Assembly (NCBI GenBank): GCA_026874595.1
Contig: CM049307.1
Coordinates: 73,384,643 to 73,448,642, forward strand
Direction: 5' to 3'
Length of the DNA: 64,000 nucleotides
Source: Sipunculus nudus
Lineage: Eukaryota; Annelida; Sipuncula; Golfingiida; Sipunculidae
Shown here one piece after another: positions 40,691 to 57,119 of the stretch (the first letter of the stretch is position 1; each line of letters starts with the position of its first letter). Under the pieces are notes generated by a model that saw nothing but the letters and a program-made list of their open reading frames with translations, was not told where the DNA came from and did not search any database. Position numbers and translations under genes: made by a program.

Positions 40691-43600
40691 GTTGAACATT
40701 CATGAATATTCATGCATGAAGAAAAAAAGTGTACTGATGCCAGAAGAAGTTACGCATCATGATAACCGTGACTCTTTTCAGTTTTTTTTTAGTCTTGACT
40801 TGGTTAAAGATATAATTATGTGCACGCCTTTTCCCTATGATCATGATCCAGAGAAATTTGCTTCAATTTTTGCTATGCATTTTCATTCAAATAATGATAC
40901 ATAAGGTCCAAATTTTTTACTGTTAAGGATTTTTTAATTAAAATATTAAAAATTTATAAAATATCACAAGCATAGTATATTGGTTATACCGGTGTTGATT
41001 ATTCACATAAATGCAACATTTTTAAACAAATGTTAATTGTTAACAAGAGCATCACTTTAGCGTATTTATATTTCACAATATAAATTAATAATTTGTAAAA
41101 TTATGTGGATAATTTGTAAAATTATGTGGTAAAAGCGAGGAATAGTACCAGGAACTTTGTTTACAAATGAATAATGCATAAAATGTTTGTTGTATATTGT
41201 TCTTTTTTTCTGTTTGCATCCCAAAACAGAGTCCCATCATCCCAGGGTCAAGAAAATATAAAATCAGGAGTTGGCAAAAAGAATAAAATTCCAAGAGCTG
41301 GAGAGAAGAGCATCGTTTGTACAGATCTTATAGGAGAGAGACTGAATAAAAATTTAAAGAAAGCAAAGAGGAAACAACAGGATGCTCAGAAAGGTATATG
41401 AATGTGTTATATATTTAGTAGTTCTTAAGAGATCTGTATCTGTTAATAATATAATTGTTTTCTTTAAAAAAAGGGGTTAAAATAAGACTACATAATTGAC
41501 ATAACAGTATGACAACTAATGGCTAATATCAGAAATTTAAAAGTTTTGATATCACACTAAATATAAAACTTTATATTTTTTTTATAATTTTGTCTGTAAT
41601 AGAAATAAAGTCAGAAGAAAAGTTACCAAGACGAGATGCTGCGGCTGATGAAGATGAAGACAGCAAGGCAGCTTCTGTATCAAAAGGTAGAGGAGTGCTG
41701 CAGCTCAGCAGCAAAAAAAAAGTCACAGCACTGCTTGCCAAGATCAGAGAAAAGGGCATAACCAAGTCTAAAAGGAAAAAACTGAAAAAACAGCTGCGCA
41801 GCATACTTGATAAGAGGTGAGTATTGTAGTATAAGAACTCTTGTAATTATAAAGCACTCCTAGAGTAGCATAAGACCTCTTGTAATTATAAAGCACTCCT
41901 AGAGTAGTATAAGAACTCTTGTAATTATAAAGCACTCCTAGAGTAGTATAAGAACTCTTGTAATTATAAAGCACTCCTAGAGTAGTATAAGAACTCTTGT
42001 AATTATAAAGCACTCCTAGAGTAGTATAAGAACTCTTGTAATTATAAAGCACTCCTAGAGTGCAAAAATTACACCAACATGTGGATTAACATTCAAAGCT
42101 AATTGCATATTATTAACATGATAACATAAATAAAACAGCTTGTATGTGGTTGGATTGGTGTTTTCTGGCCTATATTTATAAAAGGATCAAGGTTTATCTT
42201 GCAATAGATCCCTTTAAGCTCAGCTGACTGTAAGTCAACAGAGCTATAGCAGTGGCCCTTTGTTCAACAGTTGTCTGTCTGTCCGTCTGTCAGTTAAACT
42301 GGTAGTTTTGAAACTGTTGGACCTACTAATCTGAAATTTGGCATACTGTTAGGTGTCCCCAAATCTCCTGCCATACCAAACATTGGGTAACTAAGACTGT
42401 TCTTTCAAGATATTAAGGAAAAACCTCAATTTTTTAACCATTCTTCTATATATTTCCTATGTACATACCAGAAATAAGGTTAGTATTGTGTTATTTCTTA
42501 AAGTTGAGTGCCCCAACATAATGCATTATGTGAAAACTCGGGAAATATATATACTCACTTGATAATTTTTTTTAAGCTAGAGAGCAAACTTCAAGCCTAT
42601 AAGTATATTGAACTTAGATTAACTTGTACACCAGAAATTAGATGAAAATTTTGTAAGTTTTTAAGTTATTAGCATAAATGAAAAATAAGTACTTTAAATT
42701 TTGACCAAATTTGACCATGGCACATTTTCTTCCTTTAAGCGCTGTTGTAAAAGGAATAAGTTTATTTTGCATTTGCTAAAATTTTCCAAAATACAGCAGA
42801 GCGACGTGACCCATGGATCCCTTGTTTAATGCCGTGGCCATAAACACTTAAATTTGAAAGTTTGGACTTTTTTAATGAATTCACCTTGCTGCCATAAATA
42901 GATGGTTTACCTAAAATTAACTTTGAGAAGTAATTAGACATCAGGTATCAGAATAGGCCCCTTTTATAGCTCCAGGTGTAGAGAATTCCCCTGGCACCAG
43001 CACCAAACAAGCTGGTTGTGAACCTAGCTTTAAGGTTTCTTGTCAGATGTCACAAGCAGCATCAGACAGGCTTGAACCTGGGAGCCTACCGTCCTTCTAT
43101 ATTGAACCTCCATGTTTTAGCAGAGTACTTATAGATAAATTGTCACACAGGTACATGTATTGTCTGTAATGCATCCTTCCCCTTTGAACCAAAATTGCTC
43201 CTTTAAATCATCTGTCTCTCCCCAAGCTTATTATGCACTGATTTACTAAAAAAATAAATTTGTTTTCCAAAAGATCGTACATTGTTATCATGGTTATCTT
43301 TGAAGAGTTTTGTAAATCTTGTATCGCAAGTATCTATCTATATCCTTTAAACATCCACATATTTGGGAGAAGATTGATTCAAGGCCAGTTGTAAGCAAAT
43401 TTTAAATCATGATATGGTATTTATCTGATCATTGTTAAATAATTTGTTCATTTTTTTAAACACTGATGTTGGGATTACATGGTCAAGTGAATTCATAAAG
43501 CTTGATCTGGATTATGTGATGGCTCTGATAAGAGCCGTTTTGCTCAGAGAGCCGTTGTGATCAGGTAGGGACTTCTGACTGAGTCTACCTGAGGTAGGCC

Positions 43601-46600
43601 ATGTCTGTATCATCATCAGCCTCCAGCTCACGTATGTGAAGCTCAAGCTGGTCAAGCTCATCAGCAAAACGACAGGTGTAGTCATACAGCACAGTGCGGA
43701 ACCCCTCCACACTGGCAATCTGGAGTCTCAGGCGGTGCCGATGTGTCCTTGACCTGTCCTTGAGGGCTCGGTTGTACCGCATCATGATGGCACTGAGGGT
43801 GTTGTTGACATGCACTAGTTGCTTACAGGAAAACTCGAACACTTTGTTCATGGCATCAAAGCGCTCTCTGAGCTCCTCTACGTCAAAAGATAATTCAGCA
43901 GACATGTAGATAATGAGACAATGCAGAAGAGTAACTCTAACACAGGGAGAGAAGTAATCACCTCAAGACTCAGTTGAGAACTGCTCAGCTTAACTCAGTG
44001 AGTAGTATTTATAATAAAATGGTGAGTAGAACCACTGAGTACTACTGTCAGTGGTTCTAAAAAAGTTCAGTGTCAGATGCCACATATCTTTATAATCATG
44101 GTTTCTTTGTGGTTGAAGGTGCATTTCATTAGAAGACACATACAGCTCACATGAGTAGCCTGTCACCTCCAGTGAGCACTCATTAATTGTTCATTGAGTA
44201 GTTTGAGTTACACATGAGTGACCACCCTGGTGGATTTGAGCACTCAGTTGAGTAGGGAGGTTATGCATGACTGAACATGGTCTTATTTGCTGTCATTCAG
44301 GGTTAATGACCAAGTGAATGCTATTACTAGGGTTATTAACATCATATATCACATGTCAAAATGAAGATTAAACATTTTTTAGACAGTTTGAATGACATTA
44401 CTGTGAGAAGTGTTTATTTTGTTTTGAATTAGTTTATGTGAAAATACTTAAGCTAAATGATATAGAATGAAATGTACAGCAAGCTACACATAGCTGTTGA
44501 AATAATACACCAGTTAATTAAAATAACTTCATGTTGAAAGTTCTTTAATGTCAAAAGAATTGTAGGTAATTGATGAAGGTGACATGAGTTTCTTTAATTC
44601 AAAACAATGCCATCAGTGACCCGTTCAGTGGGGTCTGGTATGATAAGGCCCTGAGAAGTTTTTATTTGTGAAAACAATATCTTTGTGTCCATTTTAATGC
44701 ATAGATTATCAGAAACAGAACCCCAGGAATAATCTTTCTATACATAGTTGGCAGGGCATGACCCTAGGACATTGCAGCATCACGTTTGTATAATGTTTCA
44801 AGTGTAATTTTTAAGTTTCAAAACTTCTGTGCTAGATACTAAAAGCTAAGACAGGACAAGAACCTGACATCACACTAATAAACATTGTTGACAAATCAGA
44901 TTATGAAAGAAATTGAGCATTTGCTTTTTAAGTGACATGACTTGGGTTTCTTTTACAATGTTTTGGGTTTATGAAGGTGCTAGGTGAATCTACCTTAAAT
45001 AACAAACCATAACAGACTTTTTTAAATACGATCCCATTAAAGAATTCAAGTAAAACAACACTATTCATAATATATATGAGATTCATGGGCCACATCTCTA
45101 TTAGTTTTAGCTCAGCTGACTATAAGTCATCTGAGCTATAGTCATGGTCCATTGTCCGTCATCCGTCCGTCTGTCTGTCCGTCCGTCCGTCCGTCTGGAT
45201 GTCTGTCCGTCTGGATGTCCGTCCGTAAGACTGGCACGTTTCGACACCGTTGGACCTACGAATCTGAATTTCAGCATACAGTTAGATGTCCCTATAATCT
45301 CCTACCATGCCAAAAATTGGGTCAATAGGACTTCGTTCCGTTGAGATATTAAGGAAAAACCTCAATTTTTTATTAGAAATCTATTTTCACACTTCAGGAC
45401 TGCCTAATATCAAAACCACTCATCTGGTTTTCTTCATATTTACCATAAATATTCCTCTATATAGTTCCTATGTACATGCCAGATATTAAGTCAGTATTAT
45501 ATCATTTAAAAAAGTTATTGGCCCAAACATAATGCACTCTGTAAAAAAATCAGGAAGATATTTTGTCACTTAAGACCCAAAGTGTTAAAGGTAGGGACTT
45601 TTTTCCAGTAATACAACTTTAATTAATCAAAATTTAATTGTATACCAAAAATTAGATCAAAATCTGATAAATTTTTTTAAATATTGGCAAAAATATAAAA
45701 TTGGTACCTTAAATTTTGCCCAACTTTGGCCATGGCACGTTTTTTTCCTGTAAGTACTGTGGATTTAATTTTCACACCATGTATACATAAGGATTTAATC
45801 TGTTAAAATCTGAAATTTGAAAATAAAAGCTGCAAAATTAGGCTAGTTATTGAATTTTTTTGGAGGCTCTTGTTGTATTCCCTTACATTGTCAAGCAGTC
45901 CACTTTGATGACTGTAGGTCATTCAGTGCACATCTCTAAGCTCCCCAGGCTGTTGACATAATTTTAGATGTCCCCAAAATCTCCTACCATACCGAAAGTT
46001 GGGTCATTAGGACTTTGTTCCTTCGAGATATTAAGGAAAAAAACTCTGTTTTCCATAAAAAAAAAGCCATTGTTACACTTCAAGGCTGCCTAATATCAAA
46101 ACCACTGATCTGTTTTTGATCGTATTTAGTATTCACATTCTTTTATACATTTTCTATGAACATACCAAAAATTAGGTCAGTATTGAGTATTATTTTGAAG
46201 TTATGGGCCAAAACATAATGCAATTTTTTAAAAAATCAGGAAATATATTTACTCACATGAGAAATGCTGAACCTAGAGACCTTTTTTCAGGAATATAACT
46301 TTATTTAATCAAAATTCAATTGTTTACCCAAAATTAGATCTGAATTTTGCAAATTTTTCAAGTTATTAGCATAAATAAAAAACAATACCTTAAATTTTGT
46401 CCAACTTTGGCACTGTTGATTTAATTTTCCCAGCATATATGCATAAGGATTTAATCTTTTAAAATCTGAACTTTCAAAAGAAATTGATTGGAATGAATAG
46501 CTTTTATTCATGTTTTCACACACCATGTCAAGTGTTGTTTACATCTAGCCCACCTAGTAGTACAGCCTTCACTTGCATTATGTAACCCACCCCAGGCAGC

Positions 46601-49600
46601 TTACCTTGGCCCAGCTTGGCCACTACCAGCAGGCTTCCCCTCGCCCTGCACTCATCCCCCCCCAGCTGGTGCATAAACTAGATGAATGTTATAATTTTTC
46701 TGTATTTTATTTTATTCTTGGACATGCTACATTTTAGATTTTGTATTGAACCACCAGGGTTACAATGATTAAAGTGTACATTTAATTGTGTCCACAAAGT
46801 GGTGTATTGCTGTGAAAGTCTGGATGTTCATGAGATAAGTAATTCCTTACTTCAGAAGAGTAAAAACTTCACTAGGTGTGAAATTGACTATTAATTCCAG
46901 TAATTAATTAAAACTGGGATAGTAATTAGCACAATGATATTGTTTGTCCCTTATTCAACCAACAGTGTGCATACTTTATTTGAAAAGATGTTTTATTTTG
47001 TCAAATTTACTTTTATTTTATTTTGGTGAATAAAATTAAGCATGTCCTGAAAACTCCAATATGCAAAACTTTTTAATAGTGATTCAAGGAATATTCTTGT
47101 AGATGCCATGTTGTGGCATTATTTTCTTTTAAAATCAGTTAAAACATTTATGATTTAAAAATAATAAAATATATGTGTATGCATAATATGACCCAATGTT
47201 TTTTACTCTGTATATATAATGATTGCAACTTTTGCAACAATTCTAATATTTTAACTTATATTTTCAGGTTTTTTAATTAAAAATTTATAAACCTGTAAAT
47301 AAAAAAATGATACAGATAAAAACTTCTTAATGGAAAAAGTGGATCTGCTTAAAAAAATAGGATTATATATAAACTTGAATGCATTATTCTCTTGAAAGTG
47401 AAATAAAGGTATTAGTCCATTCTGTCCACTTGCCTGTCCATCTGTAAATTTTCGTATGCAACACAGTATCTCAAAACTTTTACTGTTTTTCTTCATGACA
47501 GTCTTGTCAGAGTATTAGTTTGCAATCATATATTTAGAACTTTACTATAACCAAGTAGGAGGGCCCCTTTCCTCTTAGCTTTTCATATTCTTATATAAAT
47601 GAAAAACATTACAATAGAATATTTCTACATCCACCTTCGTGCTGCCCTCACTTTTCCCTTCTCCGAACCCCATCCCAAAGTCAGCCTCAGTAAGCAAGAA
47701 CAAGATGAATCAGATATATTCATACTTTAATATTTTGTATAACTATTCGTCCATAGGTACCTATGTACATGCCAGAAATTATGTCAATATTGTGTAATAT
47801 GTAGACATAGTGGGCATCACAATAATGTACCTTGTCAAGACTAAAGAGATATTGTGTCATACAGTCACATATTCATAAATCACTTCATCAGCATAGTTAA
47901 TCATAACATCATATCTGTCAAATTGAACGCTTGCAGACTACCATACACTTTAGATCCTTCAACAAATAGCCTTATCATCTACTACTGCTTATTACTGCTG
48001 TCATTGCATTCATATTTGCTCAAATATATCACAATTTTCAACCCCTCCTAAATAAATAAAAAATAAACCACTTTATTTGACTCTATTAATCCATCAGTCA
48101 GGTAATTTCATTTATCATTTACTCACATATTACATTACATTCCTTTATAATAGCCCAACATGTACATGATATTCATAAGCTTTATCGACTTGATATAGTA
48201 TAACAGTGGAGAAACATTTATAGTCCAATCACGATCAGCTGAGCGCCGTGACCCATGGGTCCCTTGTTTAAGCAATTTGTTACAAAAGGCTGCAGTCTGT
48301 TTCATAACACTTTGGCACACATAAGTATCTTTTATATAGCAGTATATTGGTGTTATTTTTTTCAAGAAATTCTCATATGGTAATTCCGATTACATACTGA
48401 AGGATTTATTTTTGTTCTTTGTTAATTTAGCATTTACCAACTAAATGGTCTAATCTGATTATTGTATCCGCCAAAACAAAGTTTTGCAGATACTATGTTT
48501 TTGACTGGCCTCTGCTGCCACAGCGTTCATTTCTTGAGAACTCCTCTATGACCACTGGACCAAATTTTCTGAAACTTGACCCCATTTTCTGGTCACATGT
48601 GTATTGGTGCCTTACCTTTTTTGTGTTGACCTCTGACCTTTTCTCTCTGTAGAGCATGCATCCATCTGTGTGTCTTGTTTCACACATTAACCCACATATT
48701 GTCAGACTTGTTTGACCAGTCTGGCTGAAATTTTGCACAAGTGTAGCTCCTTGATAGCTTTACATCATACAAAAAACTGGTGGTGCCACCTGCAACCATT
48801 TTTGCAGTGTCCATCTGTTTGTCTGCTGTGGGATTAAATCACTCATATCCTAGCAGGGGTTGGACTTATCTGCTTAAAATTTTGCATGTATATATACATT
48901 TTGGATAGCTCATTCAATTTTATGGCTGGTGGTGCCACCTTCATTTACTTTTATGCTGCAGACATCCATGCTAATATCTCAGGAATGGTTTGACAGATCG
49001 GCATGAAATTTTGCATGTGTATAGATCTTACATAGCTCTACAGTTTATACAAATTTGGTGGCCCAACTTACAACCATTCTTGCCTTGTGTCCATGGGTTC
49101 ATCTGCTTAGGGTAAAAATCACTCATATCTCAGCAGTGGTTTGACTTATCCACTTGAAATTTTGCATATGTATATATCTTGGATAGCTTTCTCCTTCAAA
49201 TAACAGGTGGCACCACCTAAGATCATGTTTAAGTGGCAGACATCCATGCTAATATGCAACACATCTCACTCTGTTTCCCCTTGCCACTCAATCCATGCCT
49301 CACTTCACCCGTCCCATTGTGATTTTTGCAGATATATGTAGTCCCTTGTAGACTACCTGTATTCTAGTTTATTTATCCTATGAATCCACATTCAGTTTAC
49401 CCAGGCCTTCAAGCCTATAAGTATATTGAACTTAGTTTAACTTGTTCACCAGAAATTAGATAAAAAATGTCTAAGTTTTTATTAGACATTTTATATTTTT
49501 TAATATATTTATATATATATATTTAGACATATTTTTTTTTTTTTATTAGAATAAATGAAAATTAAGTACTTTAAATTTTGGCCAAATTTGACCATGGCAC

Positions 49601-52600
49601 ATTTTCTTCCTTTAAGCATTGTTGTTAAAGAAGTAAGTTTATTTTGTATTTGTTAAAATTTTCCAAAATACAGCGGAGCGACGTGACTCATGGATCCCTT
49701 GTTTAATACCGTGGCCATAAAAACTTAAATTTGAAAGTTTGGACTTTTTTAATGAATTCACCTTGCTGCCATAAATAGATGGTTTACCTAAAATTAACTT
49801 TGAGAAGTAATTAGACATCAGGTATCAGAATAGGCCCTTTTTATAGCTCCAGGTGTAGAGAATTCCCCTGGCACCAGCACCAAACAAGCTGGTTGTGAAC
49901 CTAGCTTTAAGGTTTCTTGTCAGATGTCACAAGCAGCATTAGACAGGCTTGAACCTGGGAGCCTACCGTCCTTCTATATTGAACCTCCATGTTTTAGCAG
50001 AGTACTTATAGATAAATTGTCACACAGGTACATGTATTGTCTGAAATGCATCCTTCCCCTTTGAACCAAAACTGCTACTTTTTGATCATCTGTCTCTCCC
50101 CCAAGCTTATTATGCACTGATTTACTAAACAATAAATTTGTTTTCCAAAAGATTGTACATTTTTATCATGGTTATCTTTGAAGAGTTTTGTAAATCTATC
50201 ATGGTTATCTTTGAAGAGTTTTGTAAATCTAGTGTCACAAGTATCTATCTATATCCTTTTAACATCCACATATTTGGGAAAAGATTGATTCAAGACCAGT
50301 TGTAAGCAAATTTTAAATCATGATATGGTATTTATCTGATCATTGTTAAATAATTTGTTCATTTTTAAACACTGATGTTGGGATTACATGGTCAAGTGAA
50401 TTCATAAAGCTTGATCTGAATTATGTGATGGCTCTGATAAGAGCCGTTTTGCTCAGAGAGCCATTGTGATCAGGTAGGGACTTATGTCTGAGTCTACCTG
50501 AGGTAGGCCATGTCTGTATCATCATCAGCCTCCAGCTCACGTATGTGAAGCTCAAGCTGGTCAAGCTTATCAGCAAAACGACAGGTGTAATCATACAGCA
50601 CAGTGCGGAACCCCTCCACACTGGCAATCTGGAGTCTCAGGCGGTACCGATGTGTCCTTGACCTGTCCTTGAGGGCTCGGTTGTACCGCATCATGATGGC
50701 ACTGAGGGTGTTGTTGACATGCACTAGTTGCTTACAGGAAAACTTGAACACTTTGTTCATGGCATCAAACCGCTCTCTGAGCTCCTCTATGTCAAAAGAT
50801 AATTCAGCAGACATGTTGATAATGAGACAATGCAGAAGAGTAACTCTAACACAGGGAGAGAAGTAATCACCTCAAGACTCAGTTGAGAACTGCTCAGCTT
50901 AACTCAGTGAGTAATATTTATAATAAAATGGTTAGTAGAACCACTGAGTACTACTGTGAGTGGTTCTAAAAAAGTTCAGTGTCAGATGCCACATATCTTT
51001 ATAATCATGGTTTCTTTGTGGTTAAAGGTGCATTTCATTAGAAGACACATACAGCTCACATGAGTAGCCTGTCACCTCCAGTGAGCACTCATTACCTGCT
51101 TATTGATTAGTGGGAGTTACACGAGTGACCACCCTGGTGGATTTGAGGGAGGTTATGCATGACTGAACATGGTCTTGTTTGCTGTCATTCAGGGTTAATG
51201 ACCAAGTGAATGCTATTACTAGGGTTATTAACATCATATATCACATGTCAAAATGAAGATTAAACATTTTTCAGACAGTTTGAATGACATTACTGTGAGA
51301 AGTGTTTATTTTGTTTTGAATTAGTTTGTGTGAAAATACTTAAGCTAAATGAAATAGAATGAAATGTACAGCAAGCTACACATAGCTGTTGAAATAATAC
51401 ACCAGTTAATTAAAATAACCTCATGTTGAAAGTTCTTTAACATCAAAAGAAGAGTAGCTAATTGATGATGGTGACTTGAGTTTCTTTAATTCCAAACAAT
51501 GCCATCAGTGACCCGATCAGTGGGGTCTGGTATGATAAGGCCCTGAGAAGTTTGTATCAATGATGACAATATTTTTGTGTCCATTTTAACGTGTAGATTA
51601 TCGGAAACAGAACCCCAGGAATATTCTCTCTGTACATAGGTGTCAGGGCATGACCCAAGGACATAGCAGCATCACGTTTGTATAATGTTTTAAGTGTAAT
51701 TTTATGTTTCAACACTTCTGTGCTGGATACCAAAAGCTGAGACAGGACATGAACCTTACATCATATTAATAAACACTGTGGACAAATCAGATTATGAAAG
51801 AAATTTAGGATTTGCTTTTTAGGTGACATGACTCAGGTTTCCTTAACAATGTTTTCATAAATGTCAGTGCCTGGAATCATACAGTCCTGCCAGTATCTCT
51901 ATTAAGTGATGGTTGGTTTCCTGTAAAAATATTAACAAAGGTTTCCTATCATATGATATTTATGTGACCTATATCCTCCGAGCTATGGGGCTTGAAATTA
52001 CCCCCCAGAATAATCAAAAATATAAAACAAAACCTCCAATATCTTAATAATTAATGATGGATTGTCATGAATCTTGCCTTGAATATTGACCATTACTAGT
52101 TTTGTCAGTTCCAGAAATGTGGTGGCACCACCTGTATTTTTGTTATTGTAACAAATATTTTTCTATTTTTTTTACCATTAAATGACAACAATCATGTCAG
52201 TTTCTCAGCTGTAATTACATCTAGTGTTCCAAAACCTGGTGTGTTTATTGATCACAAGTGGATGCCATCTAGTTATAACCCTGTCTGTCTGTTTGTCTAG
52301 CTGTCCATCCACACAAATTTGTTTTCAGATGATAACTCCAGGTTGTATTGACACATGGATTTCAAACTTGATTTATGTATGGCCCACCACTAAAGCAAGA
52401 ACCTATATGATTTTGGGGTCACAAGGTCAAAGGTCAAGGTCACAGGACTCCCTTATTTAAAAAGATTATGGCTGCATTTTAAGCCAAGCTTTTCTTCCCA
52501 AACTTTCCATTTTGCCCTTTTAGCTGACTTGCCAGTATGGGGAGAGCTTAAATGAATTTGGGGTCACATGGTCAAAGATCAAGGTCACAGGGGCCATCTG

Positions 52601-55600
52601 TTCACAAATTAGTTTCCAGATGATAACTCCAGTTTAGTTTGACATATTAGTTTCAAACTTAAATTATATATGACTCACCACTTAAGTAAGAACCGTGTCG
52701 ATTTTTGGGTCCAACGGTCAAAGATCAAGGTCATAGTACTCATTTCTTTAAAAAAAATACATATGCATTTGAAGCCAAACTTTTCATCCCAAACCTTCCA
52801 TCTTCAAGATATTGCTAACCTGCCAATAGGGGAAGATTCTGTTCAATTTTTGGGGTCAAAGGTCAAGGTCACAGTACCTACTGTGGAAAGATTATGGAGG
52901 CATTTTAAGCCAAACTTTTCATCCCAAACCTTCCATCTTGCACATAAAGCTGAGTTGCCAGTTGGCTGAGAACCTGATTGATTTGGGGGTCACAAGGTCA
53001 AAGGTCATGATCACATGGGCCAATCTATCCACATATTTGTTTCTGGATGATAACTTTAGTTTAGATTGACATATTGGTTTCAATTTTGACTTATATATGA
53101 CCCACCAATAATGTAAGAACCCTTTTGATTTTTGGGTCATAAGGCTAAAGGTCAAGGTCACAGGACCCACTTCTTTAAAACGATTGTTTATATATTTTTA
53201 GCTAAACTTTCAGTCCCAAACATTCTGTCTTCTAGATGTTGCTCATCTGCCAATAGTGGAAGTAACTTATGGATTTTGGGGTCACAAGGTCAAAGGTCAA
53301 GGTCATGGGGGCCATCTATCCACATATTATTTTTCAGATGATAACACCAGTTTGGTTTGAAATATTGGTTTCAAACTTGACTTATATATTGCCCACCACT
53401 AAAGTAAGATTCTGGGGTCATGAGATCAAAGGTCAAGGTCACAGGACCCACTGCTTTAGGAAGATTGTAGATGCATTGTAAGCCAAACTTTTCATCTCAA
53501 TCCTTCCATCATCGACATGTGGTGCACCTGCTAATAGGGGAAGTTTCTTTTTGATTTTGGGGATCACTAGGTCAAAGGTTAAGGTCACAGGACCCATCCA
53601 TTCACAAATTAGTTTATGGATGATAACTCCAGTTTGGGTAGACAGGTTTGCTTCAGACTGATCACAGGACCAATATTTTGGAAAACCTCATAAACATATA
53701 TCCTTATAGACAACTGCAGCTGAGCGTTGAGACCCATGTGTCCCTAGTTAATTTGTATTATTACCGGTACTCTAACACATAGTTATTCATATACAGTAGT
53801 GGCACTCTTCTTTGAGTCATCCACTTGCCAGTATACTGAAGTATTTAGTTTTAAGGTGTCATATCTGGCAGACTATAATGTATTGAGTTTATGAAGGCGC
53901 TAGGTGAATCTACCTTTAAAAACAAACCATAGCAGACATTTTTAATACCATCCTGTTAAAGAATTCAAGTAAAACAGAACTATTCATAATTTATTTAAGA
54001 TTCATGGGCCACATCTCCATTTTTAAAGCATTTTGTTACAAAAGGCTGAAGTCAGTTTAATAACATTTTGGCACACATAAGTATCTTTTATATAGCTGTT
54101 TATTGTGTTATGTTTTTCAAGAAATTCTCATACGGTAATTCCCATCACATACTTCTCAAGGATTTAAATGTGTTCTTTGTTAATTTAGCATTTACCAACT
54201 AAATGGTCTAATCTGAGTATTGTATCTGCCAAAACAAAATTTTGTGGATACTTTGTTTTTGACCAGACTATGCTGCCACCGCGTTCTCGTGTCACTTGTG
54301 AACTGGTGCCTAACCATTTTGCTTTGACCTCTGACCTTTCCTCTCTGTAGAGCATCCATCTGTGTCTGTATCCACACATCAACCCACATATCATAGGACT
54401 TGTTTGACCAATCTGGCTGGAATTTTTCACAAGTGTAGCTCTTGGATTGCTTCATATCATACAAAGAACTAGTGGGGCCACCTGCAATCATTTTTGCACA
54501 GCATCCATCTATTTGTCTGCCATGGGATAAAATCACTCATATCTCGACAGTGGTTGAACTTATCTGCCTAAAATTTTGCATGTGTATACATCTAGGATAG
54601 CTTACTTGATTTTATGACAGGTGGTGCCACCTACATTTACTTTTATGCTACAGACATCCATGCTAATATCTGAGGACTTGTTTGAGAGATCAGCCTGAAA
54701 TTTGGCACGTGTATAGATCGTACATAGCTCTATAGCTTATACCAATTTGGTGGCCAAACTTGCAATGCTTTTTGCATGGTGTCCATCTGTTCATCTGCTT
54801 AGAGTAAAAATCATATCTCAGCAGTGGTTTCACTTATCCACTTGAAATTTTGCATATATATACATCTTGGATAGCTTTCTCTTTCAAATAACATGTTTAT
54901 ATGGCAGACAATGTCAGACATCCATGTTTATATGCAACTATATCCCCTTGCCAACCAATCCTTGCCTCACTTCACCCATCCCACTCTTATTTTTGAGGAT
55001 ATATGTAGTCGCTTGTCAACTACCCGTATTCTAGTTTATTAATACACTGAATCCACATTCAGTTTACCCAGTGTGATGAATTCCTGAAAACTTAAGTCTT
55101 AGATTACTTCATGTCAATAAGATGCATGGTTTTACAGCTCATTTGCTGTATGTAAAAGACTGAGTAGAATTCTTTGTGATCTTTCATATTGAACCGTTAT
55201 TCATGAAATGTTGTATTTGTGTTTTATTAATTTATGATAAATCATAATTTTATCAGGTTTATAAACTTGTGATAATATTTAATCTTAAACATCATATATT
55301 TATGAATATATGAAAAAGTGTATATGTAAATATGTTAATACTTCATTTGTCCTGAAGTGCACATATTGATGTTAGGAAATCAATATATTTATACATTACA
55401 ATAAAGACTTGTGACAAGAATATTGTTGACATTTTTTGAGAATTGTGAATTTAAACATTTTGATCTGGATTATGTGATGGCTCTGATAAGAGCCGTTGTG
55501 CTCAGATAGCCGTTGTGATCAGGTAGGGACTTCTGTCAGAGTCTACCTGAGGTAGGCCATCTGTGTATCATCATCAGCCTCCAGCTCACGTATGTGAAGC

Positions 55601-57119
55601 TCAAGCTGGTCAAGCTCATCAGCATAACGACAGGTGTAGTCATACAGCACAGTGCGGAACCCCTCCACACTGGCAATCTGGAGTCTCAGGCGGTACCGAT
55701 GTGTCCTTGACCTGTCCTTGAGGGCTCTGTTGTACCGCATCATGATGGCACTGAGGGTGTTGTTGACATGCACTAGTTGCTTACAGGAAAACTTGAACAC
55801 TTTGTTCATGGCATCAAACCGCTCTCTGAGCTCCTCTACATCAAAAGATAATTCAGCAGACATGTTGATAATGTGATGATGTTGAATAGAGTAACTCTAA
55901 CACAGGGAGAGAAGTGATCACCTCAAGACTCAGGTGAGAACTACTCAGCTTGACTCAGTGAGTAGTATTTATAATAAAGTGGTGAGTAATGCTACTCAGT
56001 AGCTTAACTAGAGTTCAGTGTCAGATGTCTGTTACACTGAGTACTAGAGATGACACTCCTGGCTCAAATGAGTACCTTGTCATCTACAGTGAGTACTGAG
56101 TACCTGCTAAAACTAGCATTGGGTCACACATGAATGAGCACCACCACTGATGCTGACACCCAAGTGAGTCGGGGAAGTCATGCATGGATGATCAGCCTTG
56201 GTATTCATTAGAATTAGTGGATGAGTGATTAACTCACAGTTCATTTGATAATTGAACAAACATAATTATTGGGAGCAATATGTCACTATTGATCAATGTG
56301 AACCTTACTGTGAAATTTTATGTCTGAATGATGGGTCCTGTCTCCATCAAGGAACCAGTATTTTTATGCATGAAATGTTCCCTGACTTATCACATTAAGG
56401 GGTTATAGAGGTACAGTTTATACTCCAGAGATATAAACTCTGTCATAGAGAGGCAGTTATACTCCAGGCCCTTTTCTTAAAACCATGCACCAAATGGTTT
56501 ACTAGTATATTGCCTACTATTGGATTTGATGGGTATATGATTGATGAACTAATTTGTGAAAAATGCTCTAGTTAAATTGTAATGAATTCCTCTGATTTTA
56601 ACTTACAGTCTAGTATATACTGTATATTTGGTATATTTGTGTATTTGGTTTCTGCTTGACTTGATTGTTAAATCTTCCTTGTATGTTTAAAAGATTCTCA
56701 ATCATCAATAAGCAACTTTAGCTGCATTACTTGTTAGTGTTACAATAACATGTTCCAGAAACATGTTCAGCCCACTGACAAGAATTCTTTTGTTGATCCC
56801 ACAGGTTGTTTATATATCCTATTACTTGTTTTACAGTTCAGGAGAGCTGACAAAAGAACAAAGAAAGGAGGCTGAAATTGTTTTGAAAGGAAAAACAAAG
56901 GACAACAAATCAAGTGCCCATGTCAAGACACAAGCTTTTTCATTACCAAGGGGATGCTCAGAAGAATCTGCAGTAGTAAGAAAAGAAATCAGAATATCTA
57001 CAGATGAGGAGGCAGAGGATGAAGCTGAGGATGCGGGACACACACCCAGGATGAGCTCATCACCACAGAAAGGACATATAAAGGTTGTACTTGATTATCA
57101 CTTCTTCACTTTGCTTTAA
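40563..57119 (+). CDS. Acidic/lysine-rich protein of unknown function, modelled with four exons
   Basis: Model: 40563-40690, 41230-41393, 41603-41816 and 56837-57119 (128+164+214+283 = 789 nt, 262 aa). Phases fit at all three junctions (2, 1, 2). I do not recognise the family. Residues 1-41 are acidic (SYSDIVNSWFSDVHDD). The middle is very Lys-rich with a helical run (ERLNKNLKKAKRKQQ; TKSKRKKLKKQLRSILDKR), nuclear-localisation-like, with an acidic patch (DEDED). The C-terminal part has a DEEAEDEAED acidic stretch. Such alternation suggests a nuclear or nucleolar protein; that is inference. The first donor (AAG|GTTGAA) is weak, and the 15 kb last intron might hide further exons. A donor-like AAG|GTTGTA near the end could lead to 59488. 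AATAAA signals lie at 57190-57200. Confidence 0.55.
41230..41393 (+). CDS. Lysine-rich protein gene, exon 2
   Basis: Acceptor AAAACAG, donor AAAG|GTATAT. 54 whole codons, Lys-rich, with no stop codon in the frame. Confidence 0.6.
41603..41816 (+). CDS. Lysine-rich protein gene, exon 3
   Basis: Acceptor TCTGTAATAG and the best donor of the gene (AAGAG|GTGAGT). Encodes an acidic patch and the KKKVTALLAKIREKGITKSK helical segment. Confidence 0.65.
41825..42061 (+). repeat. 39-bp tandem repeat, six copies, next to a splice donor
   Basis: Unit GAGTAGTATAAGAACTCTTG plus 19 further bases (TAATTATAAAGCACTCCTA), nearly perfect. The first unit starts within ten bases of the exon 3 donor, so the intron begins in the array. 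The minus-strand open frame at 42052 is only this repeat. Confidence 0.93.
42212..42832 (+). mobile_element. AGCTCAGCTGA-family element, short copy
   Basis: Begins 'AGCTCAGCTGACTGTAAGTC', has the CTGTCTGTCCGTC leader, a 'GGACCTACTAATCTGAAATT' block and 'CAAGATATTAAGGAAAAACC', and ends with 'GAGCGACGTGACCCATGGAT' and 'CCCTTGTTTAA'. No coding capacity. Confidence 0.75.
43521..43536 (-). terminator. Histone-type 3' stem-loop, copy 1
   Basis: On the minus strand GGCTCTTATCAGAGCC: a 6-bp perfect stem with a four-base TATC loop, preceded by CAAAAC and followed by ATCACA, 48 nt after the stop codon of the 106-codon frame. Stem sequence, flanks and distance match the processing hairpin of replication-dependent histone mRNAs (consensus loop UUUC or similar). 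No AATAAA is seen between the stop codon and the hairpin. Confidence 0.8.
43585..43905 (-). CDS. Small all-helical acidic protein with histone-type 3' end, copy 1
   Basis: An intronless 106-aa gene; I do not recognise the family. The protein has no Pro, no Trp and a single Gly, with about 20 acidic and 16 Lys/Arg residues. It starts MSAELSFDVEELRERFDAMN, has a His/Arg-rich middle (SRTHRHRLRLQ) and an acidic end (LEADDDTDMAYLR). The pattern suggests long helices, perhaps a coiled coil or small bundle; it is not a recognisable histone. Three copies (also 50494 and 55543) differ at only a few residues although more distant flanks have diverged, which argues that the gene is real. TATA box 102 bp upstream; histone-like stem-loop 48 nt downstream. 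That 3' end would predict S-phase, non-polyadenylated mRNA; this is inferred. Confidence 0.85.
   Translation of the reverse strand: MSAELSFDVEELRERFDAMNKVFEFSCKQLVHVNNTLSAIMMRYNRALKDRSRTHRHRLRLQIASVEGFRTVLYDYTCRFADELDQLELHIRELEADDDTDMAYLR
44007..44014 (-). promoter_or_regulatory. TATA box, gene copy 1
   Basis: TTATAAAT on the minus strand inside a block (about 43930-44025) that is conserved in all three copies. It predicts a short 5' UTR of about 70-80 nt. Confidence 0.7.
44030..44260 (-). promoter_or_regulatory. Cluster of TGAGTA/CACTCA motifs upstream of gene copy 1
   Basis: About ten TGAGT or ACTCA half-sites in both orientations (for example 44032, 44153, 44175, 44194, 44214, 44240). 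Similar clusters lie upstream of copies 2 and 3. The half-site resembles those of bZIP proteins; the factor is not known. Confidence 0.45.
44965..45104. repeat. Left half of a duplicated block split by an element
   Basis: 'GTTTATGAAGGTGCTAGGTG' through 'CATGGGCCACATCTCTATT' matches 53887-54025. The match resumes on the far side of the element at 48276. Confidence 0.85.
45105..48275 (+). mobile_element. AGCTCAGCTGA-family element, about 3.2 kb, limits fixed by an empty site
   Basis: Begins 'TTTTAGCTCAGCTGACTATA', followed by a (CCGT)n leader and two or three diverged copies of a 'CCTACCATGCCAAAAATTGG' / 'GAGATATTAAGGAAAAACCT' block. It ends 'CAGCTGAGCGCCGTGACCCA' and 'TGGGTCCCTTGTTTAA'. The duplicated unit at 53.9-55.1 kb lacks it. 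GCTCAGCTG near the start and CAGCTGAGC near the end form an inverted pair. No coding sequence seen. A C-rich stretch at 46560-46670 is unexplained. Confidence 0.75.
45155..45232 (+). repeat. CCGT/CTGT microsatellite
   Basis: Repeated TCCG/TCTG tetramers forming the leader of the element; the open frame across it (SVRPSVRLDV...) is an artefact. Confidence 0.9.
48276..49407. repeat. Duplicated module, copy A
   Basis: Matches 54026-55072 throughout ('TTGTTACAAAAGGCTG', 'TTACCAACTAAATGGTCTAA', the GGTGGCGCCACC-type element, 'GAATCCACATTCAGTTTACC'). Confidence 0.9.
48470..49375 (-). mobile_element. Element with GGTGGCGCCACC monomers, copy 4
   Basis: Minus orientation: the right end (49270-49375) carries the 'GTCTACAAGGGACTACATAT' start and the left end the 'TGTATCCGCCAAAACAAAG' motif. 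About five decayed monomers (GGTGGTGCCACC). Confidence 0.75.
50430..50445 (-). terminator. Histone-type 3' stem-loop, copy 2
   Basis: The same 16-nt hairpin as copy 1, again 48 nt after the stop codon. Confidence 0.8.
50494..50814 (-). CDS. Small all-helical acidic protein with histone-type 3' end, copy 2
   Basis: 106 aa. By eye it differs from copy 1 at four residues (V9I, E24K, H57Y, E79K), three of them charge changes or His to Tyr. Intact frame, TATA box 102 bp upstream and stem-loop 48 nt downstream. It lies in the younger duplicated segment (49408-51855), so its similarity to copy 1 alone would not prove constraint; copy 3 does that. Confidence 0.85.
   Translation of the reverse strand: MSAELSFDIEELRERFDAMNKVFKFSCKQLVHVNNTLSAIMMRYNRALKDRSRTHRYRLRLQIASVEGFRTVLYDYTCRFADKLDQLELHIRELEADDDTDMAYLR
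50916..50923 (-). promoter_or_regulatory. TATA box, gene copy 2
   Basis: TTATAAAT on the minus strand, same position relative to the ATG as in copy 1. Confidence 0.7.
51856..53886. other. Extra DNA in the second unit, mostly repeat
   Basis: Absent from the matching position of the first unit (44965). 51990-52140 is the reverse complement of the family at 28900-29350. 52230-53750 is an AGGTCA-rich array with an AGCTCAGCTGA-family 3' end. No gene. Confidence 0.75.
52300..53755 (+). repeat. AGGTCA-rich tandem array with AGCTCAGCTGA-family 3' end
   Basis: About nine monomers with spacing 138-152 bp, each with 'AAGGTCAAAGGTCAAGGTCA' or a variant (52418, 52570, 52712, 52855, 52993, 53145, 53283, 53423, 53571). 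A higher-order period near 290 bp is marked by 'GATGATAACTCCAG'. Ends 'GCAGCTGAGCGTTGAGACCC'. Open frames over it are artefacts. Confidence 0.85.
53887..55072. repeat. Duplicated module, copy B (empty site for the 3.2 kb element)
   Basis: Continuous version of 44965-45104 plus 48276-49407; the junction reads 'CACATCTCCATTTTTAAAGC'. Confidence 0.9.
54215..55030 (-). mobile_element. Element with GGTGGCGCCACC monomers, copy 5
   Basis: The paralogue of copy 4, so inserted before the duplication. Left end 'GTATCTGCCAAAACAAAATT', right end 'GTAGTCGCTTGTCAACTACC'. Confidence 0.75.
55479..55494 (-). terminator. Histone-type 3' stem-loop, copy 3
   Basis: The same hairpin, perfectly kept, 48 nt after the stop codon. 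Sequence beyond about 20 nt downstream no longer matches copies 1 and 2. Confidence 0.82.
55543..55863 (-). CDS. Small all-helical acidic protein with histone-type 3' end, copy 3
   Basis: 106 aa, about 97.5% identical in DNA to copy 1 (8 differences in 321 nt by eye). Residue changes include E24K, H57Y, F76Y and D101Q. Its flanks beyond the core promoter (upstream of about 56000) and beyond the stem-loop are clearly more diverged than the coding part, which points to selection or gene conversion. TATA box 104 bp upstream. Confidence 0.85.
   Translation of the reverse strand: MSAELSFDVEELRERFDAMNKVFKFSCKQLVHVNNTLSAIMMRYNRALKDRSRTHRYRLRLQIASVEGFRTVLYDYTCRYADELDQLELHIRELEADDDTQMAYLR
55967..55974 (-). 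promoter_or_regulatory. TATA box, gene copy 3
   Basis: TTATAAAT on the minus strand in the conserved core block 'AGTGAGTAGTATTTATAATA' (plus-strand reading). Confidence 0.7.
56000..56240 (-). promoter_or_regulatory. TGAGTA cluster upstream of gene copy 3
   Basis: Repeated TGAGTA/TGAGTG half-sites (for example 56037, 56071, 56091, 56097, 56165) in sequence otherwise diverged from copies 1 and 2. Confidence 0.4.
56250..56836. other. Intron before lysine-rich gene exon 4
   Basis: AT-rich; nothing else recognised. Confidence 0.5.
56837..57119 (+). CDS. Lysine-rich protein gene, exon 4 (probably with stop codon)
   Basis: Acceptor TTGTTTTACAG with the phase needed after exon 3. Encodes ELTKEQRKEAEIVLKGK and an acidic DEEAEDEAEDA stretch. 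The open frame reads 12 codons past a possible donor at 57081 to TAA at 57119. That it belongs with exons 1-3 rests on phase and composition only. Confidence 0.5.

Follow-up and report, generated by a model that had tools for sequence, protein, structure and literature searches.

We found a large family of non-histone genes in the genome of Sipunculus nudus. From the sequence of these genes and their flanks, it is quite likely that the family mRNAs are made like those of the replication-dependent histone genes. Three members lie in the window, the 64,000-nt stretch of DNA that was analysed (C2:73.38-73.45 Mb of the 1.43-Gb genome). The genes and their parts are as follows.

43585..43905, minus strand: family gene A, 106 codons, intronless open reading frame; purifying selection in paralog comparison
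43521..43536, minus strand: gene A histone-type hairpin, 48 nt after the stop; RF00032 score 33.8 bits, just below the gathering score of 34
43502..43509, minus strand: gene A histone downstream element CAGATCAA, 11 nt after the hairpin; letters identical to those of B and C, read rather than scored
44007..44013, minus strand: gene A TATA box, 108 nt 5' of the ATG
50494..50814, minus strand: family gene B, 106 codons; purifying selection in paralog comparison
50430..50445, minus strand: gene B histone-type hairpin, 48 nt after the stop; RF00032 score 34.4 bits
50411..50418, minus strand: gene B histone downstream element CAGATCAA, 11 nt after the hairpin; read, aligned and matrix-scored
50916..50922, minus strand: gene B TATA box, 108 nt 5' of the ATG
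55543..55863, minus strand: family gene C, 106 codons; purifying selection; the AF2 model is of its protein
55479..55494, minus strand: gene C histone-type hairpin, 48 nt after the stop; RF00032 score 34.1 bits
55460..55467, minus strand: gene C histone downstream element CAGATCAA, 11 nt after the hairpin; read, aligned and matrix-scored
55967..55973, minus strand: gene C TATA box, 110 nt 5' of the ATG

An earlier note on this DNA had described three 106-codon minus-strand genes, and all three are found at those places in the list of open reading frames. It had put a hairpin exactly 48 nt 3' of each stop codon, which is the distance we measured in all three. The hairpin, GGCTCTTATCAGAGCC, is 16 nt long, with a 6-bp stem and a 4-nt loop; it has three minus-strand sites in the window and is identical among genes A, B and C. 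Allowing up to 3 mismatches, a search for GGCTCTTATCAGAGCC gave 6 matches against 0.23 expected from shuffled sequence, near-palindromic sites being counted on both strands. Two of the three hairpins score above the gathering score of the Rfam Histone3 model (RF00032) and the third just below it. The CAAAAC that the note saw 5' of the hairpin is present in two of the genes; the third has CACAAC. The TATA box was also borne out, as TATAAAT 108-110 nt 5' of the ATG. Among 27 members of the wider family, only 19 have a TATA match within 200 nt 5' of the ATG. A tandem repeat of a 39-nt unit (window 41787-42098) adjoins gene A.

The family is much larger than the window. A search of the whole genome with the window proteins gave 108 family matches. 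Four of them are genes A, B and C and a near-copy at a distance of 0.9 Mb. A tandem array on C2 accounts for 60 copies, spaced about 1,660 bp apart (the near-copy by the window excluded), and an array on C3 for 26, spaced about 2,034 bp apart (one truncated); the 18 remaining matches include one truncated copy. Hairpin and protein searches added three loci on C14, one at C3:31.7 Mb, one at C4:65.3 Mb, five at C4:93.7 Mb and one at C5:45.6 Mb. The family thus has at least 119 loci in the 1.43-Gb genome, some 30 of them outside the two arrays (about 60 and 26 copies), and the tandem multicopy layout that the note had claimed is more extensive than it stated. For comparison, we counted 30 full-length H3 matches against the ~60 + 26 array copies of the family, both numbers being lower bounds.

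We found that the family proteins are under purifying selection. The ratio dN/dS was 0.11-0.54 in all 14 paralog pairs tested (14/14). An alignment of 26 members has five invariant residues, a C plus R-Y-x-R-A. Members outside the window group are only 17-49% identical to the window proteins, and paralogs at this distance retain the hairpin. The most distant members, L035 and L061, were placed in the family by eye from protein and hairpin together, which makes them less certain; in the family tree, L035 has a very long branch.

Of the 108 loci from the protein search, 104 have the hairpin 3' of them, 96 by an exact pattern within 300 nt downstream and 8 by reading. These 8 are among the 12 loci outside the pattern count; the other 4 have no hairpin. 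Two of the 8 are array copies whose stem has a single change, to a G-U pair, one has a changed flank, and the remaining five are dispersed genes, one of which fits the pattern and lies outside the 100 of 102 places listed. Among members read singly, 27/29 have the hairpin (26/28, plus L029). The loci without it are the full-length L013, L016 (degenerate, with the remnant CTCTTGTCAGA) and the truncated copies L031 and L032. The absences in L013 and L016 look like losses, because the family tree puts L016 as sister to a hairpin gene and L013 beside the window group (moderate support).

The genome contains 102 copies of the pattern, KGCTCTTNTCAGRGCMANCA, and none of its reversed control (0). Of these 102 places, 100 were listed, and 96 of the 100 stand downstream of a family match. 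The other 4 are the second hairpin of L020, the divergent L061, a broken array copy (L062) and an unread place that precedes the C3 array by about one repeat unit. Since we picked the pattern with the family already in view, its specificity is partly by construction. L020 (C4:46075551-46077123) has two perfect histone hairpins whose starts are separated by 30 nt; the downstream element follows the second one alone.

The stem of the hairpin was paired in 138/138 cells of an alignment of 23 members. Two-sided changes occur at 3/6 pairs and fill 10 cells, compared to a shuffled mean of 2.0, and none of 500 shuffles reached 10. The number of pairs with two-sided changes is unremarkable by itself, as 50/500 shuffles reached 3. 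Judged from this alignment, the stem changes between paralogs are compensatory. The 23 members have seven different loops, of which the TATC of the window is one, and all have T at loop positions 1 and 3. L029, which stands outside this alignment, has the loop CTTC, as does the H3 gene that we read.

The family also has the second histone processing signal. A sequence matching CAGATCTA lies about 11 nt 3' of the hairpin, with at most one change in 20 of the 23 members compared (exact in 12/23, one change in 8/23, at +10 to +12); L014, L017 and L018 fit it more poorly. This comparison left out window gene A, L002, L006 and L029, the last of which has an exact element too. Our histone reference was 13 genes of the same genome (nine H1 and one each of H2A, H2B, H3 and H4), and these have a sequence like TTCAGATCTAAG 11-12 nt 3' of the hairpin. 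A matrix made from the 13 histone genes only, and weakened by two of the 13 training sites being picked at the wrong place, gave the 23 family members a mean of 11.9 bits, with matches that start 8-10 nt after the hairpin. The same matrix gave shuffled sequences a mean of -1.1 bits, and the largest of 500 shuffled means was 1.1. The motif AGATC was found just 3' of the hairpin in 20/23 members and farther downstream in 0/23. Because hairpin and matching element stand at the histone offset, both histone processing signals are, by sequence, present in the family in histone spacing. The match points to a single U7 snRNP that the family would share with the histone genes. The downstream element is a stronger clue than the hairpin, and goes beyond what the earlier note had claimed.

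Two divergent subgroups, at C4:93.69-93.75 Mb and C5:45.6 Mb (L097-L099 and L100), have non-standard hairpins with the loops CGTG and GCTAA. The four members read there (3/5 at C4:93.7 Mb) have changed hairpins yet an exact downstream element.

The layout of these genes resembles that of the replication-dependent histone genes (H1, H2A, H2B, H3 and H4). Both are short, single-exon and in tandem multicopy arrays, both have a hairpin soon after the stop with a downstream element match at 11-12 nt, and both have no poly(A) signal before the hairpin. The stems differ: those of the family are mostly GGCTCT/AGAGCC, whereas the 13 histone genes have GGCC-type stems except for one H1 (GGCTCT) and the H2B (AGCCCT). 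Among the histone genes themselves, a 5.35-kb array holds H2B, H4 and H3, and the H1 genes L064-L068, L071, L073 and L074 lie scattered outside that array, some of them in small clusters.

In contrast to the genes, the protein does not resemble a histone. None of the three window proteins had a Pfam match over the cut-off, and no histone model appeared up to E 10. With 26 members at E 1, no histone model was among 25 of the 27 families listed, and the best E value among the matches listed was 0.0019, with none of them convincing. Real histones of the same genome do match histone models in Pfam. Five of six histone proteins checked were over the cut-off with such models, and H4 (named from sequence) was just below the core-histone cut-off and above that of other histone-fold models. 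The best PDB profile match was a weak one, to the coiled coil of BAP31 (E 0.0095).

The predicted structure agrees with this. The best AF2 model, made from the three window proteins, has a mean pLDDT of 88.4 and two helices, at 2-47 and 53-105. Two of the five models were good (88.4 and 86.5) and the others scored 67.0, 57.5 and 52.0. Foldseek and VIA-align gave only generic coiled-coil hairpin matches, with a best Foldseek E value of 0.03. The protein is thus predicted to be a coiled-coil hairpin of ~100 residues with two helices and not a histone fold, in line with the earlier note, which had called it a non-histone protein and had proposed this comparison. Coiled-coil hairpins in the PDB (Vipp1/PspA, PI3K iSH2, axonemal proteins) likewise have two antiparallel long helices; no sequence kinship to them was found, and an arrangement this common cannot indicate function. 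The window proteins are proline-free with one glycine, as the note had said, and they are acidic only mildly (pI 5.5, 6.3 and 6.8). Across the family the pI ranges from 4.6 to 10.3, and acidity is therefore no defining family trait; unlike histones, the family has mixed charge.

We looked for the processing machinery in the genome. SLBP is encoded there: its RNA-binding domain (PF15247) matches two neighbouring stretches of C1, and the scores of 60.7 and 30.5 bits both exceed the cut-off. An Rfam search for U7 snRNA gave six matches, all under the cut-off (65 of 345,857 candidates scored). Two pattern searches for U7 gave 9 matches against 5 in reversed controls and 25 against 15, none convincing among those whose flanks were read (8/9 and 23/25). 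The site L052 (C8) had the best stem, -14.5 kcal/mol over 45 nt. We did not accept it as U7: the stem is interrupted, and its Sm-like site is without the AA that is usual before TTTG.

Poly(A) signals are found on the far side of the hairpin in about half of the members scanned. Neither AATAAA nor ATTAAA occurs between stop and hairpin in any of 25 members (0/25), in contrast to the two full-length members without a hairpin, which have such a signal soon after the stop, and the window genes bear out the note's statement that no AATAAA precedes the hairpin. Within the stretch scanned 3' of the hairpin, 12/25 hairpin members have one or the other signal; a polyadenylated form of the message is therefore possible. 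The H3 gene that we read has an AATAAA downstream as well. Genes of the H2AX type have both hairpin and poly(A) ends, histone-type in dividing cells and polyadenylated elsewhere. The family is like them in having a hairpin and, in those 12/25 members, a downstream poly(A) signal, and unlike them in not being a histone variant. The signals in these members and in H3 fit the notion that the family genes work in the same two modes, a reading that overlaps with the one we prefer and that we regard as possible but rather doubtful. The window genes speak against it: within 300 nt 3' of the stop they have no AATAAA, and one has an ATTAAA, at 259.

The signals might also be fossils. The family would then have captured a histone 3' flank and would carry hairpin and element unused, with polyadenylated transcripts. 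AATAAA or ATTAAA lies shortly after the hairpin in some members, and in the two full-length members that lost the hairpin a poly(A) signal stands no more than 140 nt from the stop. However, the paralog pairs L024/L025, L014/L017 and window/L006, whose dS is close to 1 or higher, retain both hairpin and downstream element, the stem changes look compensatory, and the spacing between hairpin and element is nearly fixed. We consider it unlikely that the signals are fossils. Taken together, the sequence data give strong reason to think that histone-type 3' processing signals on these non-histone genes are kept by selection.

Histone-type hairpins also occur elsewhere in the genome. A pair of hairpins about 540 bp apart marks nine places of a dispersed virus-like element (L063, C2:12631000-12640900, with further copies on C3, C4, C5, C9, C16 and C17), perhaps a Polinton-like virus or transposon. 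The copy that we read has six histone-type hairpins, three per strand, pointing away from each other. Each lies within ~90 nt 3' of a non-histone open frame, 78-204 codons long; among the frames nearby are one for a chromodomain protein and one with a PC4-like match that falls just short of the cut-off. The element may use histone 3' ends. At L047 (C6:42942500-42943650), an open frame of 321 residues has a perfect histone hairpin 34 nt after its stop, followed by CAGATCTAAG. We scanned 254 of its residues against Pfam without a match, and dropped the label "transposase-like" on that ground. L044 (C10) has a 3' end similar to that of L047. L045 (C1:68.24 Mb) and L046 (C13:53.48 Mb) have perfect histone hairpins, and in the 150 nt upstream of these no long open frame comes to an end.

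The virus-like element raises the notion that the family itself came from a mobile element or DNA virus with histone-type 3' ends, and that the arrays are its amplified remains. That an element of the same genome has six histone hairpins, each close to the end of a non-histone frame, is consistent with such an origin, as are the single-exon structure and arrays of the family. In contrast, no family-like frame was seen by eye in a stretch of one element copy, the viral contigs scanned hold no relative of the window protein, and purifying selection and ordered arrays look like host genes. There is little chance, in our judgment, that this is how the family arose. That the hairpin is a chance or repeat-borne palindrome unrelated to SLBP is extremely improbable, even in a repeat-rich region like that of the window, given the Rfam histone matches, the 104/108 loci, 102 pattern occurrences against 0 reversed and the downstream element common to family and histones, and we consider it ruled out by paralog conservation and compensatory change.

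Based on these results we favor the reading that these genes use the histone route. The note had suggested a non-histone family with histone 3' processing signals, and hairpin conservation, compensatory changes and the downstream element all argue for it. SLBP would bind the family hairpin, and the U7 snRNP would pair with the CAGATCTA element. Cleavage would occur just 3' of the hairpin, leaving a message that ends without poly(A). The level and translation of family mRNA would then follow histone control, in S phase or as stored message in eggs or cleavage embryos. Our guess is that the protein is needed in bulk with new chromatin, in a chromatin-associated or early-embryo structural role.

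According to one article (PMC2781718), SLBP had never been implicated in the direct regulation of other genes. Among the open-licence papers searched, the titles and abstract openings listed name no non-histone gene with a histone-type 3' end, which is no proof of absence. Complete histone-type 3' signals on more than 100 non-histone genes would break the rule that reserves these signals for histone messages, and that textbook rule may therefore not hold. We lean toward the broader view that replication-type 3' processing is not for histones only: in this lineage it would drive the production, in bulk, of a helical-hairpin family that is not histone and whose gene copies outnumber the counted H3 genes, and a virus-like mobile element would have adopted the same signals for its own genes. 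If this is true, new genes can recruit the SLBP/U7 route, and the family points to a protein that such animals require as DNA replicates or during early embryonic development.
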